Shown one piece after another: positions 391 to 9,191 of a stretch of DNA of 64,000 nt (its first letter is position 1; the number at the start of each line of letters is the position of its first letter). Position numbers and translations under genes: made by a program. Source of the stretch: Bordetella parapertussis (GTDB taxonomy: Bacteria > Pseudomonadota > Gammaproteobacteria > Burkholderiales > SG8-41); NCBI GenBank assembly GCA_945901405.1, contig CAMDLH010000008.1, positions 1 through 64,000 on the forward strand, given 5' to 3'. Under the pieces are notes generated by a model. The model did not search any database and was not told the origin of the DNA. It saw only the letters and a program-made list of their open reading frames with translations.

Positions 391-1401
391 TTACTGCAAC
401 TCCACATTCGCATCCTTAATCACTTTAGCCCACTTAGCAATTTCCGCCTTGATATGCGCCGCAAACTGCTCCGGCCGATCCCCGACAGGCTCCGCACCCA
501 GCGCCGATAGTCGTTCATTCACATCCGGCAGTTTCAATATGCGTTGCGTTTCGGTGGCAAGTTTGTCGACCACGGGCTTGGGTGTGCCGGCGGGCGCCAC
601 CAATCCAAACCACGCGCTGGTGTTGTAGCCCGCGACACCGGCCTCGCTGATGGTGGGCAGGTCTGGCATTGCTGGTGAGCGTTTTGCGGTACTCACGGCC
701 AGCGCGCGTATCTTGCCCGCTTTTACCTGCGGGATGTAGGGCGGCATGTTGTCGATGGTGACGATGATTTGCCCGCCGATCACATCCGCCAGCACGCCCG
801 CGCTGCCTTTGTAGGGGATGTGCTGCATGTTGGTGCCGGTCATGGTCTTGAACAATTCCGTCGACAGGTGCCCGGTGCTGCCGTTGCCGGGCGTGCCGTA
901 GTTGAATTTGTTCGGGTTCGCTTTCAGATGCACGATGAATTCCTTGACGTTCTTAGACGGCACGCTATTGTTGACCACCATGATGTTGGGCACCAATGCC
1001 ACCAGGCTCACCGGTGCGAAATCTTTCACCGCGTCCCACGGCAGCTTGCGATACAGGCTCGGATTGATGCCGTGCGTGGCGGCCGTCACCATCAACAGCG
1101 TGTGGCCGTCAGCGTTGGCTTTCGCCGCCGCGTCGGTGCCGATGTTACCGGTGGCGCCAGGGCGGTTGTCGACAATCACCGGCTGGCCGAAGGTCTCGCT
1201 CATCTTTTGCCCCACCGCGCGCGCAAGGATGTCGGTGGCGCCGGCGGGTGTGTAGGCGACGATGATGCGGATGGGTTTGCTGGGAAATTGCTGCGCAAGC
1301 GCCATGCCCGGCACGGCAAGGAAGAAATATAAGTATATGTTTTTTAACGATATTTTCACATTGGCTCCGATGGTTGTTGATGGGTTGCACCCATCCTGCA
1401 A
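391..1401 (-). CDS. Bug/TctC-family tripartite tricarboxylate transporter substrate-binding protein
   Basis: ORF with signal-like N-terminus, FPSKPIRIIVAYTPAGATDILAR and PGATGNIGTDAAAKANADGHTLL motifs typical of Bug proteins. Confidence 0.93.
   Translation of the reverse strand: MQDGCNPSTTIGANVKISLKNIYLYFFLAVPGMALAQQFPSKPIRIIVAYTPAGATDILARAVGQKMSETFGQPVIVDNRPGATGNIGTDAAAKANADGHTLLMVTAATHGINPSLYRKLPWDAVKDFAPVSLVALVPNIMVVNNSVPSKNVKEFIVHLKANPNKFNYGTPGNGSTGHLSTELFKTMTGTNMQHIPYKGSAGVLADVIGGQIIVTIDNMPPYIPQVKAGKIRALAVSTAKRSPAMPDLPTISEAGVAGYNTSAWFGLVAPAGTPKPVVDKLATETQRILKLPDVNERLSALGAEPVGDRPEQFAAHIKAEIAKWAKVIKDANVELQ
1329..1357 (+). repeat. Dispersed AT motif copy A (within Bug gene, antisense)
   Basis: ATAAGTATATGTTTTTTAACGATATTTTC; 25/27 core identity to copy D. 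Confidence 0.75.
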
Positions 1402-1429
1402 ATACTGTTACCGCACCAGCATGGGGTTA

Positions 1430-1471
1430 ACTAAAAACTCATCACTCAAAACTAATCACTGAACTAATCAC
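1430..1471. repeat. Heptanucleotide STRR-like array (ACTNANC), copy 1
   Basis: ACTAAAA ACTCATC ACTCAAA ACTAATC ACTGA ACTAATC AC. Confidence 0.65.
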
Positions 1472-2460
1472 GGCCCTTTAATCCCAGCCGCCTTGATCAC
1501 TCTCGCCCACTTGGCGATTTCTTCTTGAATGAACGCGGCGTATTGCTCGGGGGTGTTGCCCACCGGGTCTGCGCCGCTTTTCATCAGCGAATCGCGCAGC
1601 TCCGGCGACTTCAATGCGCGCACGGTGTCGGCGTGCAGCCGTTCGATGATGGCACGCGGCGTTTTCGCGGGTGCTGCGAGACCAAACCAGTTGGTGACAT
1701 CAAAGCCCGCGAGGCCGCCTTCGGCGATGGTGGGAATCTCGGGCGCTGCGTTGGAGCGCCGCGCGCCGCTCACCGCCAGCGCACGCAATTTGCCACCGCG
1801 CGCGTGCGGCAGCACGGCCGGCATGTTCGGAAAGGCGAGCGAGGTATGCCCCGCGATCAGATCAATCACCGCCGGGCCCGCGCCCTTGTATGGCACATGC
1901 AGCCATCGCACACCGGCCATGAACTGAAACAACTCGCCCGTCAAATGCCCGCTGGAACCCGTGCCCTGCGAGGCAAAATTGATCTGCCCCGGCCGCGCTT
2001 TGGAGAAAGCGATCAACTCCTTCACCGTGCGCGCGGGGAACGATGGATGCGTCACCAGCAGATTCTGTGATTCGGTAAGCAACGAGATAAACGCGAAGTC
2101 GCGCACCGCATCGAAATTCAGTTTCATCAGCGACGGATTCGTGACATGCCCCGCCGCGTTGATGATGAGCGTGTAGCCATCCGGTGCCGCGCGCGCGGCC
2201 GCCTCGGTGGCGATGGCGGTGTTCGCACCGCCGCGATTTTCGACCACCACGATTTGCGCCAGCGATTCGGTGAGCTTTTGCGCGAGCAGGCGCGCCACTA
2301 CATCGGTCGAGCCGCCGGGCGCGAAGCCCACCAGCAGGCGCACGGGTTTGGTGGGGTAGGCCTGTGCCTGCACATAACCACTGGTAAGCAACATGAAAAG
2401 CGCAATCAAAGATTGGGATTTATGCACTTTACTCAACACTAAACACTTAACATTCATCAT
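1468..2460 (-). CDS. Bug/TctC-family substrate-binding protein
   Basis: YPTKPVRLLVGFAPGGSTDVVARLL...NRGGANTAIATEAAARAAPDGYTL; start codon uncertain because the 5' end overlaps a heptad repeat. Confidence 0.92.
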   Translation of the reverse strand: MMNVKCLVLSKVHKSQSLIALFMLLTSGYVQAQAYPTKPVRLLVGFAPGGSTDVVARLLAQKLTESLAQIVVVENRGGANTAIATEAAARAAPDGYTLIINAAGHVTNPSLMKLNFDAVRDFAFISLLTESQNLLVTHPSFPARTVKELIAFSKARPGQINFASQGTGSSGHLTGELFQFMAGVRWLHVPYKGAGPAVIDLIAGHTSLAFPNMPAVLPHARGGKLRALAVSGARRSNAAPEIPTIAEGGLAGFDVTNWFGLAAPAKTPRAIIERLHADTVRALKSPELRDSLMKSGADPVGNTPEQYAAFIQEEIAKWARVIKAAGIKGP

Positions 2461-2461
2461 T
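2426..2461. repeat. Heptanucleotide STRR-like array, copy 2
   Basis: ACTTT ACTCAAC ACTAAAC ACTTAAC ATTCATC ATT. Confidence 0.6.
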
Positions 2462-3425
2462 GCCCTTTAATCCCTGCCGCCTTGATCACCTTCGCCCACT
2501 TGGCGATTTCGCGCTCGATGAACGCGGTGTATTGCTCCGGCGTGTTGCCCACCGGCTCGGCGCCTTGATCGAGAAAACGCGCGCGCAGGTCGGGCGCATT
2601 GACGGCGCGCACGATGGCGCTGTTGAGTTGATCGACGATCGCGCGCGGCGTTTTCGCGGGTGCGGCGATGCCAAACCATGAAGTCACGTCAAAGCCGGTC
2701 AAGCCGGATTCGGTGAGCGTGGGTATGCCCGGCACCGCCTGATTGCGCCGCGTGCCTGATAGCGCGACTGGCCGCAGCCGCCCATTGCGCACGTGCTGAA
2801 TTGCCACCGGGATATTGGCGAAGTACATCGAAATCTCACCCGAGAGCAGCGCCACCATGCCCGCGCCGCTGCCCTTATACGGCACGTGCACCAGTTTCAC
2901 GCCGGTCATAAATTGAAACAGTTCCGCCGACAGGTGCGGCGTGCTGCCCGCGCCGGATGAGCCGTAGTTGATGTCGCCGGGGCGTTGTTTGGCGAAGGCG
3001 AGAAATTCCTTCACGGTTTTCGCCGGGATTGAGGTGTGCAGCACCAGCAGGTTTTGCGATTCAGCCACCAGCGAGATGAACGAAAAATCGCGGATCGAAT
3101 CGTAGTTGGGTTTCGCCAGTGTCGGGTTGGTGGAATGCGCGGGCGCGTTTAGCAAAATGGTGTAGCCGTCGGGCACGGCGCGCGCCACCAGCTCGGTGGC
3201 GATCATGGTGCTGGCGCCGCCGCGGTTATCGACAATGACTTGCTGGCCCAGATACTCCGCCAACTTCGGCGCCACCGCGCGCGCGAGAAAATCATTGGTG
3301 CCGCTGGGCGGAAAACCGACGATGAAGCGGATGGGTTTTGTGGGGTAGTTTTGCGCTTGCGCGGCGGTGAACAACAGCCCGCAGCACAGCGCGCCAATAT
3401 ATTTCAGGGGTTGTTTCATGGGCAT
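2457..3425 (-). CDS. Bug/TctC-family substrate-binding protein
   Basis: YPTKPIRFIVGFPPSGTNDFLARAV...; ORF track starts at 3584 but the signal peptide start (MPMKQPLKYIGALCCGLLFTAAQA) is at 3425/3419. Confidence 0.9.
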   Translation of the reverse strand: MPMKQPLKYIGALCCGLLFTAAQAQNYPTKPIRFIVGFPPSGTNDFLARAVAPKLAEYLGQQVIVDNRGGASTMIATELVARAVPDGYTILLNAPAHSTNPTLAKPNYDSIRDFSFISLVAESQNLLVLHTSIPAKTVKEFLAFAKQRPGDINYGSSGAGSTPHLSAELFQFMTGVKLVHVPYKGSGAGMVALLSGEISMYFANIPVAIQHVRNGRLRPVALSGTRRNQAVPGIPTLTESGLTGFDVTSWFGIAAPAKTPRAIVDQLNSAIVRAVNAPDLRARFLDQGAEPVGNTPEQYTAFIEREIAKWAKVIKAAGIKGQ

Positions 3426-3448
3426 ATTCTCGCATGCCCCGTCCGTGG

Positions 3449-5068
3449 TTATCCCTTGAACACGCCGCGCAGCCACGCCTCCAGCGTGATCAACAGCCAG
3501 ATTTTTACGCCGCGGCGCGGATGGATGCCGCCGAGCCTGCCGTCGAGCAGACGTTCGAGCCATGCGCGCTCGAATAGCCCCCACGGCGCCAGGCCATCCA
3601 GCAGCCGTTCGCGCGCCTGCGGCAGCAGCGGCCCGCGAAACCAGCCGTGCACCGGCACCAGCATGCCACTCTTGGGGCGCTCGATAATTTCGCGCGGCAG
3701 CAGATCGCGCACGGCTTCCTTCAACAGATATTTTTCAATCGAACCACGCAGCTTCAGTTGCGGTGGGATCGCAAACGCCGTCTCCACCACCGCGCGGTCG
3801 AACAGCGGCGCGCGCGGCAGCACGCCGTAGGGCGCGCTGATGGCGTCCACCTTCGACAAAATGTGGTGCGCGCCCTTGCACGCGAGGTTGATCGCCATCA
3901 GCCGCGCGACGAAATTGTTCCAGCGCGCGTCTTCGAGGTGCGGCGTCACCCAGTCTTCGAGCGCGTCTTGCGCGATGCCGGCGCGCGTTTCGGGCGCGAG
4001 CATGTCCGCCAGATCGTCGTAACATTTCTGGTGCGCGCGCAGAAAACTCGCCGCACGCTGGCGGCGGTTGTCATCCGCATACAGGCCGCCGAAGAGTTCC
4101 GCCAGCACCATGGGCACATTCTTCGGCCCGCCGAAACACGGGTCGCCGCCTTCGCCGTTGAGCACCACGCCCACCTCGCGCGCGGCCGCGTCAAACAGCA
4201 TCGCGTTGGGCACGGTGAGGGGGTCACCGATGGGGTCGGAGAGCATGGCGATGGTGCGGTCGAGATTGGCCACCACCGTGGCGGGGGAGAGCTCAACCAC
4301 GCGATGCTCGACGCCGCAGTGCCGCGCCACCATCGAACTGAAAGGCAGCTCGTTGCGATACTCATCACCGAACGAAACCGAATAGCTGATGACCGGCGCA
4401 TCGTGCAGCCTCGCCGCGAGTGCCACCACCAGGCTCGAATCGATGCCGCCGGAGAGCGTGGCGCCCACCGGCTCGCCGCGCGGCAAGCGGCTTTTTACCG
4501 CCGCCTCCAGCCGCTCGCGCAGCTCCGCGCGCAGTGCGTCCTCGCCGCGCCACTGCGCCGGTTCGCGAGGCAATGTCCACCACGCGCCGCGCGTGATGCC
4601 GCCATCGCGAAACGTAACGATCTCACCAGGCAGCACCTTGTAGACGCCGCGCACCAGCGTCTCGCGCCCCGGCAGATAGGCCCACGAGAGATAAGCCGCC
4701 ACGCTCGCAGGATCGAGCTCGCGCGCAACCTGGCCGCTGGCGAGTATGTCGCACAGGCGCGAGGCGTAGACGATGCGCCGGTCGCGCGTGAGCGCGTAGT
4801 AGAAACTGCGCTCGCCGATGGCATCGCGCGCCAGTCTGACCGAGCCATCCGCGTCTTCCGCCGCGAGCGCGAATGGGCCGCGCGTTTCACTGAAATCGCC
4901 CGCATGCAGCCAGCGACGCCACTCTTGCGCGCGCGGCGCGGGCGTGCAATCGTGTTCAACACTGAGCGCGGCACCCTGCCCCGCGACGCCCGCGATGCGC
5001 GGCGCAATTTGCGCGTGCGGCGGCCTAACCAAAGCCGTCCGCGTCGGATTCGATATCGCTGGCTTCAT
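3449..5068 (-). CDS. Asparagine synthase-like protein, degenerate class II glutaminase domain
   Basis: PP-loop LSGGIDSSLVVAL and NGEGGD motif of the AsnB synthetase domain; N-terminus MKPAISNP...APRIAGVAG lacks MCGI/Cys2. Confidence 0.85.
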   Translation of the reverse strand: MKPAISNPTRTALVRPPHAQIAPRIAGVAGQGAALSVEHDCTPAPRAQEWRRWLHAGDFSETRGPFALAAEDADGSVRLARDAIGERSFYYALTRDRRIVYASRLCDILASGQVARELDPASVAAYLSWAYLPGRETLVRGVYKVLPGEIVTFRDGGITRGAWWTLPREPAQWRGEDALRAELRERLEAAVKSRLPRGEPVGATLSGGIDSSLVVALAARLHDAPVISYSVSFGDEYRNELPFSSMVARHCGVEHRVVELSPATVVANLDRTIAMLSDPIGDPLTVPNAMLFDAAAREVGVVLNGEGGDPCFGGPKNVPMVLAELFGGLYADDNRRQRAASFLRAHQKCYDDLADMLAPETRAGIAQDALEDWVTPHLEDARWNNFVARLMAINLACKGAHHILSKVDAISAPYGVLPRAPLFDRAVVETAFAIPPQLKLRGSIEKYLLKEAVRDLLPREIIERPKSGMLVPVHGWFRGPLLPQARERLLDGLAPWGLFERAWLERLLDGRLGGIHPRRGVKIWLLITLEAWLRGVFKG

Positions 5069-6128
5069 AGGTAAACGATTCCGTGTCGTCGACGACGCGG
5101 CTGTTGCTGCCGCTACTGCTGCTGTCGCTGCCGCCGCCGCCGGAATCGTTGTCGCTTTCCAGATCGCGATTGAGCGCCTTGTAAAGCCGCTTCAGGACTT
5201 GCTCCGGCCGGATTACCGCGAGCTCCAGTTCCTGGCTCGACAGCCACGTGGCTTCCCAAGCGGAAACGCCATGGCCGGCCGGCACTGCGGCACCGGTGTG
5301 CGGCTTGTAAAGGCCGATAAAGGCCTTCGCCTGCCGCGGACGCAATCCCACATCCGATACCGTGACATCCTGCGCAAACCACGCGTGGTCCGTAGCCAGC
5401 TTGTGCGCGAGCCGGCAGCCGTTGGGCGTGGCATCGTGCAGCGCAAACACGCGCAGGCGCGGATTGCGCTTTAACATCGCGCGTATGGTTTCAAAGTGCG
5501 CCTCCGGGTAGCCATCCGCCGACAGTACCGCGCAGTTATTTTCGAAGTGAAAATTGTTGGCGAGCAGAATGTCGGTGGTGCGCGCGCGGTCGCAGATCAC
5601 CGCGCGATCGAATGAATAATCCGCGATGTCGGCTTCGAGCTTGCGCGGCACGGGCGCGGGGGAGCCGCGCGCGTGTGCACGCACAATCATGCCTTTCGGG
5701 TTGCCGTGCACTTTTTGCCAGGCGATCAGCATGCGGTCGAAGACCTTTTGATCCAGCCGCACAAAGCGCTGCGTCTTGGCGCGCCGGATCGAATATGCAA
5801 AAAAAATAGCGATCAACGCCGCCAGCACGGCGAACGGGTATCGTGCAATCGCGAAACAAACCAGCGTGGCAATAGCAAAAACAATCAGGCCCACGATCGC
5901 GCAACCAATTTTCACGCGCTGCCGCCGCGCGATCTCGTAATACAAATGTTCCGCGCCCCAGCGCAACTGGCCCTTGGCCGACACCGCGTTAATGGCATTC
6001 TCAAACGCGCTGTCGGTTAGCAAATCCCCTTTCTTTGGCTCAAATGCGAAGCGCCCGTTGCATTTCGGGCACGCGCCGTTGGAGCGTTCGCTGTACTTCG
6101 CGTCATTGCCGCAACGTATGCACTTCAT
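5025..6128 (-). CDS. Uncharacterised protein: N-terminal zinc ribbon (CxxC...CxxC), two TM helices, possible Toprim-like region, acidic Ser/Gly C-terminal tail
   Basis: MKCIRCGNDAKYSERSNGACPKCNGRF; hydrophobic VKIGCAIVGLIVFAIATLVCFAIARYPFAVLAALIAIFFAYSI; tail SDNDSGGGGSDSSSSGSNSRVVDDTESF. Lies between two asn-synthase-like genes and overlaps both. Confidence 0.75.
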   Translation of the reverse strand: MKCIRCGNDAKYSERSNGACPKCNGRFAFEPKKGDLLTDSAFENAINAVSAKGQLRWGAEHLYYEIARRQRVKIGCAIVGLIVFAIATLVCFAIARYPFAVLAALIAIFFAYSIRRAKTQRFVRLDQKVFDRMLIAWQKVHGNPKGMIVRAHARGSPAPVPRKLEADIADYSFDRAVICDRARTTDILLANNFHFENNCAVLSADGYPEAHFETIRAMLKRNPRLRVFALHDATPNGCRLAHKLATDHAWFAQDVTVSDVGLRPRQAKAFIGLYKPHTGAAVPAGHGVSAWEATWLSSQELELAVIRPEQVLKRLYKALNRDLESDNDSGGGGSDSSSSGSNSRVVDDTESFTYEASDIESDADGFG

Positions 6129-7879
6129 CGCCAGTCACCCGTGGGGCGCTTGCCGCCGCCGTCGATGAACACGCGCAGCCACGCTTCGAGCATGGCCAGC
6201 GCCCACAGCCGCTCGCCCACGCGGCGGCGGCGTGTCTCTCCGGGCAGATTGCGCCCTTGCAGCAGCGGTGCGATGTAGTCGTTGCGAAACAGACCGCGTT
6301 TTTCGAGTGATGCCTTGCCGAGCAACTCGTGCATCGCGGGCGCCAGCGGCCCCAGTGCCCAGTCGGTGATGGGCACGCCCATGCCAAGTTTTTTACGCCA
6401 TACAATCTCGCGCGGCAGTTTGCCGCGCACTGCAAGCTTCAGCACGAATTTTTCCACCGCACCATGCAACTTGAGTTGGGGCGCGAGCGCAAATGACGCT
6501 TCAGCGAGCTTGCGGTCAAACAGCGGCGTGCGCACATCCAGCCCCCACGCATTCGCCATGCGTTCGGCGCGCGGCAAAATATTCTGGCAGCCCTTCAACG
6601 CAAAATCGGCAAGGCGTATGTGATTGGCGAACGTGCTCGCCTTGTCGCCCTGCAAGTAAGGCATCAGCAACGCACGCCGCTGTCCGGCGGGGCCGACGCG
6701 CGCGCGAAACTCGGGTGTGTAGAGCGCATCTTCCGCGCCATAAAACCGGTGATAACTGCGCAGGTAGATTTCTTCGCGGGAATCCTCATTGCCAGTGTTC
6801 GCATACAAGTTGGCGTACAGCTCTGCGCCTATCATCGGCTTTTGCGTCCAGCCACCAAAGAGTTGATCGCCGCCTTCGCCGTTGAAAATACAATCGCAAC
6901 CCGCCTCGCGTGCCGCTTTGCCGAGCAGATATTGCGGGCCGGTTACCGCGTCGCCGAACGGCAGATCGAGCCGCCAGGTGAGATCAGGCAATATCGGCAG
7001 GATGTCTTCGCCGCCGACCTTAACGAATTGCAGCGGGATTTTTAGAAGATCGGCCACTTCTTGCGCACGGTCTTTCTCGATGCTTTTTTCACCGAAATCG
7101 AGGCTGAAGGCGCTGACGTTCGCGCCCGCTTCCTTCAGCCACAACGCAACCGATGACGAATCCAGCCCGCCGCTCAAGAATAGCCCGATGTTCTCCTTGC
7201 CATTAAGCCGCTTTGTAACGGCGGCCTTGCACAACTCCGCGATGGTACGCACCGCCGCGCCGCGGTCGGCGAGCGTTTCGTCCAGCGCCTCGCGCAACTC
7301 GAAGTATTGCGTGATCGTGAGCCGGCCATTCTCATGCACGGCAATGCGCCGCGGCAGCAGGCGGCGGATGCCTTTCACCGGCGTGTCTTCGCCGGGCACA
7401 AAGGAGAACGTCAGATACTTATGAATCGCCGCGTCGTCGATCTCGCGCGGCATGCCGGGCACGGCCAGTAACTGTTTGATTTCGCTGGCAAAATAAAACA
7501 CGCTGCGATGTTCGGTGTAATACAGCGAACGCACTCCGAACGGGTCGCGCAGCAGCGTGAGGCGGCGTTTGTCGCCATCCCACCACGCGGCGGCAAATGC
7601 GCCATCAATGTCATCCAGGCTGCCCTGCAACTTGCCTGTCAATGACGCGGCAGGCGAATCCACCGGCGGCGCAAACGTGCCCGCGCATGCAACCAGGTGA
7701 TTGCCATCGCGATGTATGCCCGGCGATTTGCCCGGCCGCCCGCCCCACCAGCGGTAGCCAAGCGCAACACCGGGCGCAACCGCTTTGTCGGTGCGATCAC
7801 CTCGATAGTCGATCGCACCCAACATCGCGTCCAGCACGGACGGATCAGCCTCACCCACCCAACCGCAGATTCCGCTCAT
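6125..7879 (-). CDS. Asparagine synthase-like protein with Ser in place of catalytic Cys2 (MSGICGW)
   Basis: MSGICGWVG N-terminus, FGVRSLYY, LFLSGGLDSSSVAL PP-loop, NGEGGDQLFGG. Confidence 0.88.
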   Translation of the reverse strand: MSGICGWVGEADPSVLDAMLGAIDYRGDRTDKAVAPGVALGYRWWGGRPGKSPGIHRDGNHLVACAGTFAPPVDSPAASLTGKLQGSLDDIDGAFAAAWWDGDKRRLTLLRDPFGVRSLYYTEHRSVFYFASEIKQLLAVPGMPREIDDAAIHKYLTFSFVPGEDTPVKGIRRLLPRRIAVHENGRLTITQYFELREALDETLADRGAAVRTIAELCKAAVTKRLNGKENIGLFLSGGLDSSSVALWLKEAGANVSAFSLDFGEKSIEKDRAQEVADLLKIPLQFVKVGGEDILPILPDLTWRLDLPFGDAVTGPQYLLGKAAREAGCDCIFNGEGGDQLFGGWTQKPMIGAELYANLYANTGNEDSREEIYLRSYHRFYGAEDALYTPEFRARVGPAGQRRALLMPYLQGDKASTFANHIRLADFALKGCQNILPRAERMANAWGLDVRTPLFDRKLAEASFALAPQLKLHGAVEKFVLKLAVRGKLPREIVWRKKLGMGVPITDWALGPLAPAMHELLGKASLEKRGLFRNDYIAPLLQGRNLPGETRRRRVGERLWALAMLEAWLRVFIDGGGKRPTGDWR

Positions 7880-7889
7880 GATTTTTTCA

Positions 7890-7930
7890 ACTCATCACTA
7901 AAAACTATGCACTCAACACTATTTGTCACT
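7890..7930. repeat. Heptanucleotide STRR-like array, copy 3
   Basis: ACTCATC ACTAAAA ACTATGC ACTCAAC ACTATTTGTC ACT. Confidence 0.65.
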
Positions 7931-8888
7931 CCCCCTTGATGCCCGCGGACTTGATCACCTTCGCCCACTTGGAGATTTCGCTTTGCACGAACGCAGTATA
8001 TTGCTCCGGCGTGCTGCCCACAGGGTCGGTGCCCAGATCGATCAGCCGAGCGCGCAGATCGGGGGACTTCAGCGCGCGCACTATTTCGTTGTTGAGTTTG
8101 TCAATGATGGCGCGCGGCGTTTTCGCGGGTGCGGACACACCATACCACGCGGTGACTACAAAGCCAGGCAGCCCGCTTTCGACAACTGTCGGCACGTCCG
8201 GCGCGGCGGATGAACGCTTCTCGCCCGTTACCGCAATGGCACGCAGGCGGTTGCCGCGCACGTAGCCGATGACGCCGGCGATGTTGGTGAAATACAGCAC
8301 GTGGTGCCCCGCCAGCAGATCGATCAGCGCGGGGCCGGCGCCCTTGTACGGGATATGCACCCACTTCACACCTGTCATGATCTGAAACAACTCACCGGAG
8401 AGATGCCCGGTGGAACCCGTGCCGGCGGAGCCGAAATTAAGCTGCCCCGCGTGTTGTTTGGAAAACGCGATTAACTCTTTGACGGTGCGCACCGGCAGCG
8501 ACGGATGCACGGTCAGCAGATTCTGCGCATCGGCCAACTGCGTGATAAAGGCAAAATCCTTGATGGGATCGAAGCTTAGTTTCATCAGCGCCGGGTTGGT
8601 GGCGTGGCCCGGCGCGTTCTGCAAAATCGTGTAGCCATCGGGCGGCGAACGCACCAGCAACTCCGACGCAATCGCGGTGTTCGCGCCCGCGCGATTTTCA
8701 ACCACGAACTGCTGGCCCGTCTGCTCGATCAGCTTTGCCGCCAGCGCGCGCGCGACGATGTCGTTGGGGCCGGCGGGTGTGAAGCCGATCAGAAAGCGTA
8801 CGGGTTTGGCAGGGTATTGCTGCGCATGACCCGCTAACGGCGTGGCGGCGAGTGCGCATACTAGGTAGATGCTTTTTATCACTTTCAT
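7926..8888 (-). CDS. Bug/TctC-family substrate-binding protein
   Basis: MKVIKSIYLVCALAATPLAGHAQQYPAKPVRFLIGFTPAGPNDIVARAL; start refined to 8888 from the signal peptide. Confidence 0.92.
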   Translation of the reverse strand: MKVIKSIYLVCALAATPLAGHAQQYPAKPVRFLIGFTPAGPNDIVARALAAKLIEQTGQQFVVENRAGANTAIASELLVRSPPDGYTILQNAPGHATNPALMKLSFDPIKDFAFITQLADAQNLLTVHPSLPVRTVKELIAFSKQHAGQLNFGSAGTGSTGHLSGELFQIMTGVKWVHIPYKGAGPALIDLLAGHHVLYFTNIAGVIGYVRGNRLRAIAVTGEKRSSAAPDVPTVVESGLPGFVVTAWYGVSAPAKTPRAIIDKLNNEIVRALKSPDLRARLIDLGTDPVGSTPEQYTAFVQSEISKWAKVIKSAGIKGE

Positions 8889-9191
8889 TCCGAAACCTTG
8901 CTCCACTGGTAACCGCCGATTCGAACAAGCCTCAAGTTTACAGCGCCTGATTCTCACTACGGATTCGCCGTGGAAACTCATGGTAACTTAAAGTGGCAAG
9001 GATTTTGGAGGAGTAATTTGCTCTGATAGCCGTTGTCGGGAGGCGTGTCTGATGACCGGCATGTTACGACCCGGCGCCGCTATTCCAGCTTCCAGGAAGC
9101 GGCCATCCGACCTCGAGAAAAACACCCGCAAATACTCCTTGCAGGTAGCCGCACCGCCACCTCCGACTGGCGTGCCAGCTACCACGCACCT

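Follow-up and report, generated by a model that had tools for sequence, protein, structure and literature searches.

Which substrate is served by two asparagine-synthetase-like (AsnB-like) enzymes that have lost their glutaminase nucleophile and are encoded on either side of a gene for a membrane protein? Such a trio lies in the window, by which we mean the whole 64,000-nucleotide stretch of DNA analysed here. The reading we favour, with belief and doubt evenly weighed, is that the trio is a protein-tail modification system in which the C-terminus of the membrane protein would be modified, as suggested by comparison of sequences across related loci.

The A-Z-B locus and its two ligases

The three reading frames are all intact and lie on the minus strand in the order A-Z-B:

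6125-7879, minus strand: gene A, 584 aa, starting MSGICGW; AsnB-like ligase of the A-type (NGEGGDQLFGGW), with Ser2 at the glutaminase nucleophile position
5025-6128, minus strand: gene Z, 367 aa; zinc ribbon, transmembrane hairpin, Toprim-like domain and a predicted disordered tail ending in DGFG
3449-5068, minus strand: gene B, 539 aa; AsnB-like ligase of the B-type (NGEGGDPCFGGP), with an N-terminal extension and no nucleophile

The gene overlaps described in the original prediction were found again, with 4 nt shared by A and Z and 44 nt by Z and B. Both A and B match the Asn_synthase family PF00733 (2e-63 and 9e-70, respectively), and a single partial match was the only other PF00733 protein in the window's assembly.

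TctC-family (Bug-type) receptor genes are found on either side of the trio, forming an array at 391-3584 and 7926-8981 that encloses it. The same setting recurs in the Burkholderiales loci L004-L008, and the trio may thus have been inserted into the array. Two of these loci, L004 and L008, come from MAGs titled Bordetella parapertussis. Their TctC setting is that of the other Burkholderiales MAGs, and the species label is probably wrong.

For the enzymes, we aligned 77 AsnB-like homologues from the family loci, with E. coli AsnB as the reference. The catalytic motifs in the window are placed as follows:

7874-7876, minus strand: Ser2 codon of A, at the AsnB catalytic Cys position (from the sequence)
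7154-7174, minus strand: PP-loop SGGLDSS of A (from the sequence and the 77-homologue alignment)
4433-4453, minus strand: PP-loop SGGIDSS of B (from the sequence and the 77-homologue alignment)
6866-6883, minus strand: NGEGGD of A, followed by Gln instead of Glu (from the alignment)
4139-4159, minus strand: NGEGGDP of B (from the alignment)

The loss of the glutaminase nucleophile and the retention of the synthetase site, both proposed originally, extend to all 77 homologues. The column of the catalytic Cys contains Cys in 0/77 sequences, being occupied by Ser in 15, Ala in 13, Gly in 9 and a gap in 29, and no alternative start giving an N-terminal MCGI was found. Ser2 of A was considered as a replacement Ntn nucleophile and rejected, as its relatives carry Thr, Ala, Gly or Asp at this position.

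The synthetase site, on the other hand, is almost invariant: SGGxDS, Glu348 and Asp351 are each conserved in 77/77 sequences and Lys449 in 76/77. The departures from E. coli AsnB concern Glu352, which is Gln in A and Pro in B, and Tyr357, which is Trp and Pro, respectively. NGEGGD had been singled out as unusual for an AsnB; the oddness of GEGGD alone was not borne out, but that of the residue following it was, since the Glu352 column holds Pro or Gln in every one of the 77 sequences. The Glu352-Tyr357 pair is replaced by Pro-Pro in 43 homologues and by Gln-Trp in 31, with the remaining 3/77 falling outside the search pattern, and the synthetase domains separate cleanly into a Q-W type (A) and a P-P type (B). 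By our own mapping, this pair corresponds to the Glu-Tyr dyad that is important for carboxylate recognition in peptide-amidating relatives (PMC13060819). These enzymes thus have an intact half for ATP activation, a dead glutaminase half and a remodelled pocket on the acceptor side. From these sequence patterns we infer, in agreement with the original prediction, that A and B are carboxylate-activating ligases that would use another nucleophile.

Several identities were rejected because A and B score below the NCBIfam cut-offs: the AsnB equivalog (TIGR01536; 237 and 206 bits against 267), the lasso peptide cyclase (NF033535; 142 and 110 against 525), the XrtA/PEP-CTERM amidotransferase (TIGR03108; 210 and 244 against 817) and the NAGGN amidotransferase. 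A role in anti-phage defence was also rejected, as no PADLOC model matched convincingly; the sole match was a weak, partial QueC in A.

The membrane protein Z and its Phe-Gly C-terminus

Z is the third component of the trio, and its features are the following:

6060-6122, minus strand: zinc ribbon, with C3, C6, C20 and C23 invariant in 32 homologues
5775-5906, minus strand: two hydrophobic helices (residues 75-118), a predicted membrane hairpin
5349-5609, minus strand: Toprim-like domain (residues about 174-260), from Pfam TOP6A-Spo11_Toprim and PDB folds
5028-5147, minus strand: C-terminal tail (residues 328-367), low-confidence and predicted disordered
5028-5033, minus strand: C-terminal Phe-Gly codons, TTT GGT, followed by the stop TAG

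The AlphaFold2 model of Z, based on 32 homologues, has a pLDDT of 87 and a pTM of 0.84, with low confidence for the last ~40 residues. PF21180 (TOP6A-Spo11_Toprim) was detected in 22 of the 32 Z sequences (best 8.9e-6), the window's Z itself staying under the gathering score, and topoisomerase VI-A was the best PDB fold in both searches (Foldseek probability 0.98-1.00, E 0.01-0.03 with best values of 0.01-0.015, TM about 0.3). The Toprim DxD motif reads HDA in Z instead of DGD. As the second acidic residue is lost, Z is probably a non-catalytic relative, and a role as an active Spo11/topoisomerase VI nuclease is unsupported. No family model covering Z was found in the libraries searched.

The most informative feature of Z, which the original prediction had missed, is its C-terminal Phe-Gly. 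Overall, 48/58 Z sequences end exactly in these two residues. This end is found in 48/52 Z sequences with family AsnBs in the locus or genome, and in 0/6 of those where such AsnBs were not found; for these six, the loci contained none, and the genome searches yielded nothing beyond partial hits on other AsnB-like proteins. In L124, an FG-tailed Z is not linked to any AsnB, but both an A-type and a B-type enzyme are encoded elsewhere in that genome. Ignoring kinship, the association gives a Fisher p of 5e-6. AsnB losses on the tree are few, however, with two that are well supported and independent and four on the best tree, so that an independent-pairs test cannot reach significance. The association is thus strong in pattern and not formally significant after correction for kinship.

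The four exceptions, Z1 of L010 and Z1-3 of L143, all lie in loci that encode another FG-tailed protein. In Enhygromyxa (L010), Z1 lacks both the FG and the membrane hairpin, and a second, divergent Z2 ends in EDVGFG. In Streptomyces (L143), a 179-aa membrane protein unrelated to Z and located between the three FG-less Z-like genes and the AsnB ends in NNDDGAWSDDDFG (DDDFG). Among the ORFs of at least 100 aa in the loci, 50/1770 end in FG, and only one of these is neither a Z nor the Streptomyces tail protein.

The tails of Z vary in length and sequence and are usually acidic and Gly/Ser-rich. Residue -4 may be D, E, V, G, A, Q, H or S, and residue -3 S, G, D or N. With no acidic residue fixed upstream, the terminal carboxylate is the sole invariant one. 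The codons vary freely, Phe being encoded by either of its two codons and Gly by any of its four. An origin of the FG as a by-product of the overlap with B was rejected on account of this variation and of the convergent orientation of B in cyanobacteria.

Distribution of the gene set

A search of GTDB contigs with the protein sequence identified relatives of A (54-88% identity) in eight loci, and the A-Z-B order is kept in seven of them: four from Betaproteobacteria/Burkholderiales MAGs and one each from a 'Cyanobacteria' MAG, a Deltaproteobacteria MAG and Enhygromyxa salina. The eighth, L008, lacks Z and most of B. There (L008:8001-9721), A is truncated at residue 524, with a B fragment and a TctC gene directly behind it, which reflects either a deletion or an assembly chimera. 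In L007 (6722-7866), Z carries a frameshift and an in-frame stop, due to a sequencing error or to its being a pseudogene; its C-terminus nonetheless reads DSDGFG.

With a Z profile, we then surveyed sampled genomes. Besides the window's own genome, only 1/250 from its order contained a Z homologue, and among 399 genomes sampled from its phylum no other genome had one. For Enhygromyxa and the Deltaproteobacteria MAG, three overlapping samples from their groups gave Z homologues in 15/284, 16/237 and 13/144 genomes, and in the phylum of the 'Cyanobacteria' MAG they were present in 23/194. The gene set is present in at least four bacterial phyla. Co-conservation of the three genes, which the original prediction had named as its own test, is strong and extends across phyla.

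Rearranged or reduced sets occur in cyanobacteria, in Myxococcota and on a Streptomyces plasmid. In a typical cyanobacterial locus, a small membrane protein is followed by A, a LysA-like decarboxylase and Z, and B is convergent; in Gloeothece verrucosa PCC 7822 the set is located on a plasmid, and Z is annotated as 'hypothetical protein'. Reduced loci in Myxococcota and the cyanobacterial phylum comprise Z and one B-type enzyme, and B plus Z thus look like the core of the family. The Enhygromyxa salina locus (L010:740-13196) consists of two tandem modules: the first comprises, in this order, ornithine aminotransferase, AsnB, Z2 and a cupin, and the second A, Z1, B and a DUF3050 protein. The plasmid of Streptomyces sp. 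NBC_01237 (L143:4483-10161) carries three tandem Z-like genes, the FG-tailed membrane protein and one B-type AsnB, all without annotation in the sequence collection.

Three other genes recur around the set: a LysA-like PLP decarboxylase (23 loci, often overlapping A), a small membrane protein (19 loci) and a cupin (12 loci). A dedicated LysA-like decarboxylase was not found in the window's genome, which encodes only a 31%-identical LysA, and the decarboxylase and the cupin are thus accessory. In L108, L110 and L111, Z and one B-type AsnB were the only components found, with no coupled LysA-like gene.

Candidate mechanisms and relation to known systems

In the proposed tail modification, A and B would be ATP-pyrophosphatase-type ligases of the asparagine-synthetase fold, with dead glutaminase halves, that recognise the flexible tail of Z and adenylate its C-terminal glycine carboxylate (...DGFG-COOH), the putative acyl donor. 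The acyl group would be transferred to an amine not supplied by glutamine, which could be free ammonia, a di- or polyamine, an amino acid or an amine of a protein. Where it is coupled to A, the LysA-like decarboxylase may supply or trim this amine, and the cupin may do likewise; in the window's genome, without that decarboxylase, the amine would come from elsewhere. Conservation of the Phe-Gly end moves the candidate substrate from an unspecified acid to the C-terminal Gly of Z. We infer glycine adenylation and amide formation on Z from this conservation and from related peptide enzymes; as A and B lack the Glu-Tyr dyad, the carboxylate of Z would be bound differently. Two AsnBs, a zinc ribbon and a Toprim-like domain, on the other hand, exceed the needs of a simple tail amidation, and the conserved C-terminus could be a docking motif.

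Docking combined with a small-molecule product is the main rival, which we consider unlikely while taking it seriously. Here, the Phe-Gly tail would bind A and B, or their dead glutaminase pocket, and recruit them to the membrane, and the true substrates would be a small acid and an amine, as for carbapenam or beta-lactam synthetase. The LysA-like decarboxylase and the cupin would perhaps make the rest of the metabolite, and the recurrence of both genes and of the small membrane protein fits such a pathway. Beta-lactam synthetase and CarA are AsnB-like enzymes that are not glutamine-dependent; of the solved relatives, CarA is one of the nearest to B (2.5e-13), and both synthetases also lack the Glu352-Tyr357 pair. 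However, the loci reduced to Z and one B-type AsnB contain no coupled LysA-like gene, and docking has no need for an exact C-terminal placement with an invariant Gly. Furthermore, the Streptomyces locus has the tail on an unrelated protein, a shift that would be expected of a substrate tag, although docking could accommodate this as well.

A and B may be the activating enzymes of a bacterial protein-conjugation system with Z as its tag or carrier, a reading that we hold to be rather improbable. The C-terminal Phe-Gly would be adenylated by an asparagine-synthetase fold and linked to amino acids, polyamines or the amines of proteins, and in Streptomyces the FG-tailed membrane protein unrelated to Z would serve as tag or carrier. 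Such a system would parallel ubiquitin-like or Pup conjugation, or the LysW amino-group carriers, with an unrelated enzyme fold.

It is very unlikely that the FG tail has a separate role, in membrane sorting, proteolysis or Z-Z contact, and that the AsnBs merely share its operons. The sequences are related to one another and four FG-less Z proteins do lie beside AsnBs, but the FG is absent exactly where family AsnBs were not found (6/6), and each of those four is accompanied by a separate FG-tailed protein in its locus. Least probable of all is that A and B activate an Asp or Glu of the tail to form a lasso-cyclase-like isopeptide or lactam, with the FG for recognition only: lasso cyclases, which activate the carboxylate of a side chain, are indeed AsnB-like relatives, and the tail is usually acidic and Gly/Ser-rich, but its variable positions -4 and -3 offer no invariant acidic residue, and A and B score well under the lasso-cyclase cut-off.

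We found no published description of the trio in the literature searched, and the original statement that no known family has this exact composition holds, there being also no family model for Z. If tail modification is correct, the trio represents a widespread undescribed system of Betaproteobacteria, Myxococcota, cyanobacteria and at least one actinomycete, in which a resident membrane protein would have its C-terminus modified by asparagine-synthetase-like ligases. The scope of this enzyme family, so far small molecules and short peptides, would then widen to include the modification of proteins, and proteins annotated as 'hypothetical' or 'asparagine synthase-related', such as CYAN7822_RS31755 to RS31775 of Gloeothece verrucosa, would gain a possible function and a testable substrate.

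Compared with known systems, Z resembles topoisomerase VI-A/Spo11 in its predicted Toprim-like domain and in an aligned GYP ... D..P-G stretch, and differs in its added zinc ribbon, membrane hairpin and tail and in having HDA for DxD. CarA and beta-lactam synthetase resemble A and B in the absent Glu352-Tyr357 pair, but have Tyr (TGYG) where the A/B family keeps Glu348 (NGEG), and they act on small molecules to form an intramolecular lactam. The adjoining YgiC/YjfC and DUF1190 (YgiB) proteins provide a parallel to the trio as a pair of a ligase and a Gly-ended partner: E. coli YgiC carries the annotation peptide--spermidine ligase (Pederick 2023 as cited in PMC12568646), and the YgiB protein encoded next to it has a Gly-Gly end (...SMGG). 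YgiC and YjfC, however, have the ATP-grasp fold, whereas A and B belong to PF00733, and YgiB is unrelated to Z. Finally, TsrC, ScdTA and PesC share the asparagine-synthetase fold of A and B and adenylate C-terminal carboxylates of ribosomal peptides (PMC13060819). PesC takes its ammonia from glutamine and possesses the Glu-Tyr dyad, whereas the glutaminase of A and B is dead and the dyad lost; and while the substrate of TsrC, ScdTA and PesC is a short precursor peptide, the putative substrate of A and B is a conserved zinc-ribbon/Toprim-like membrane protein.
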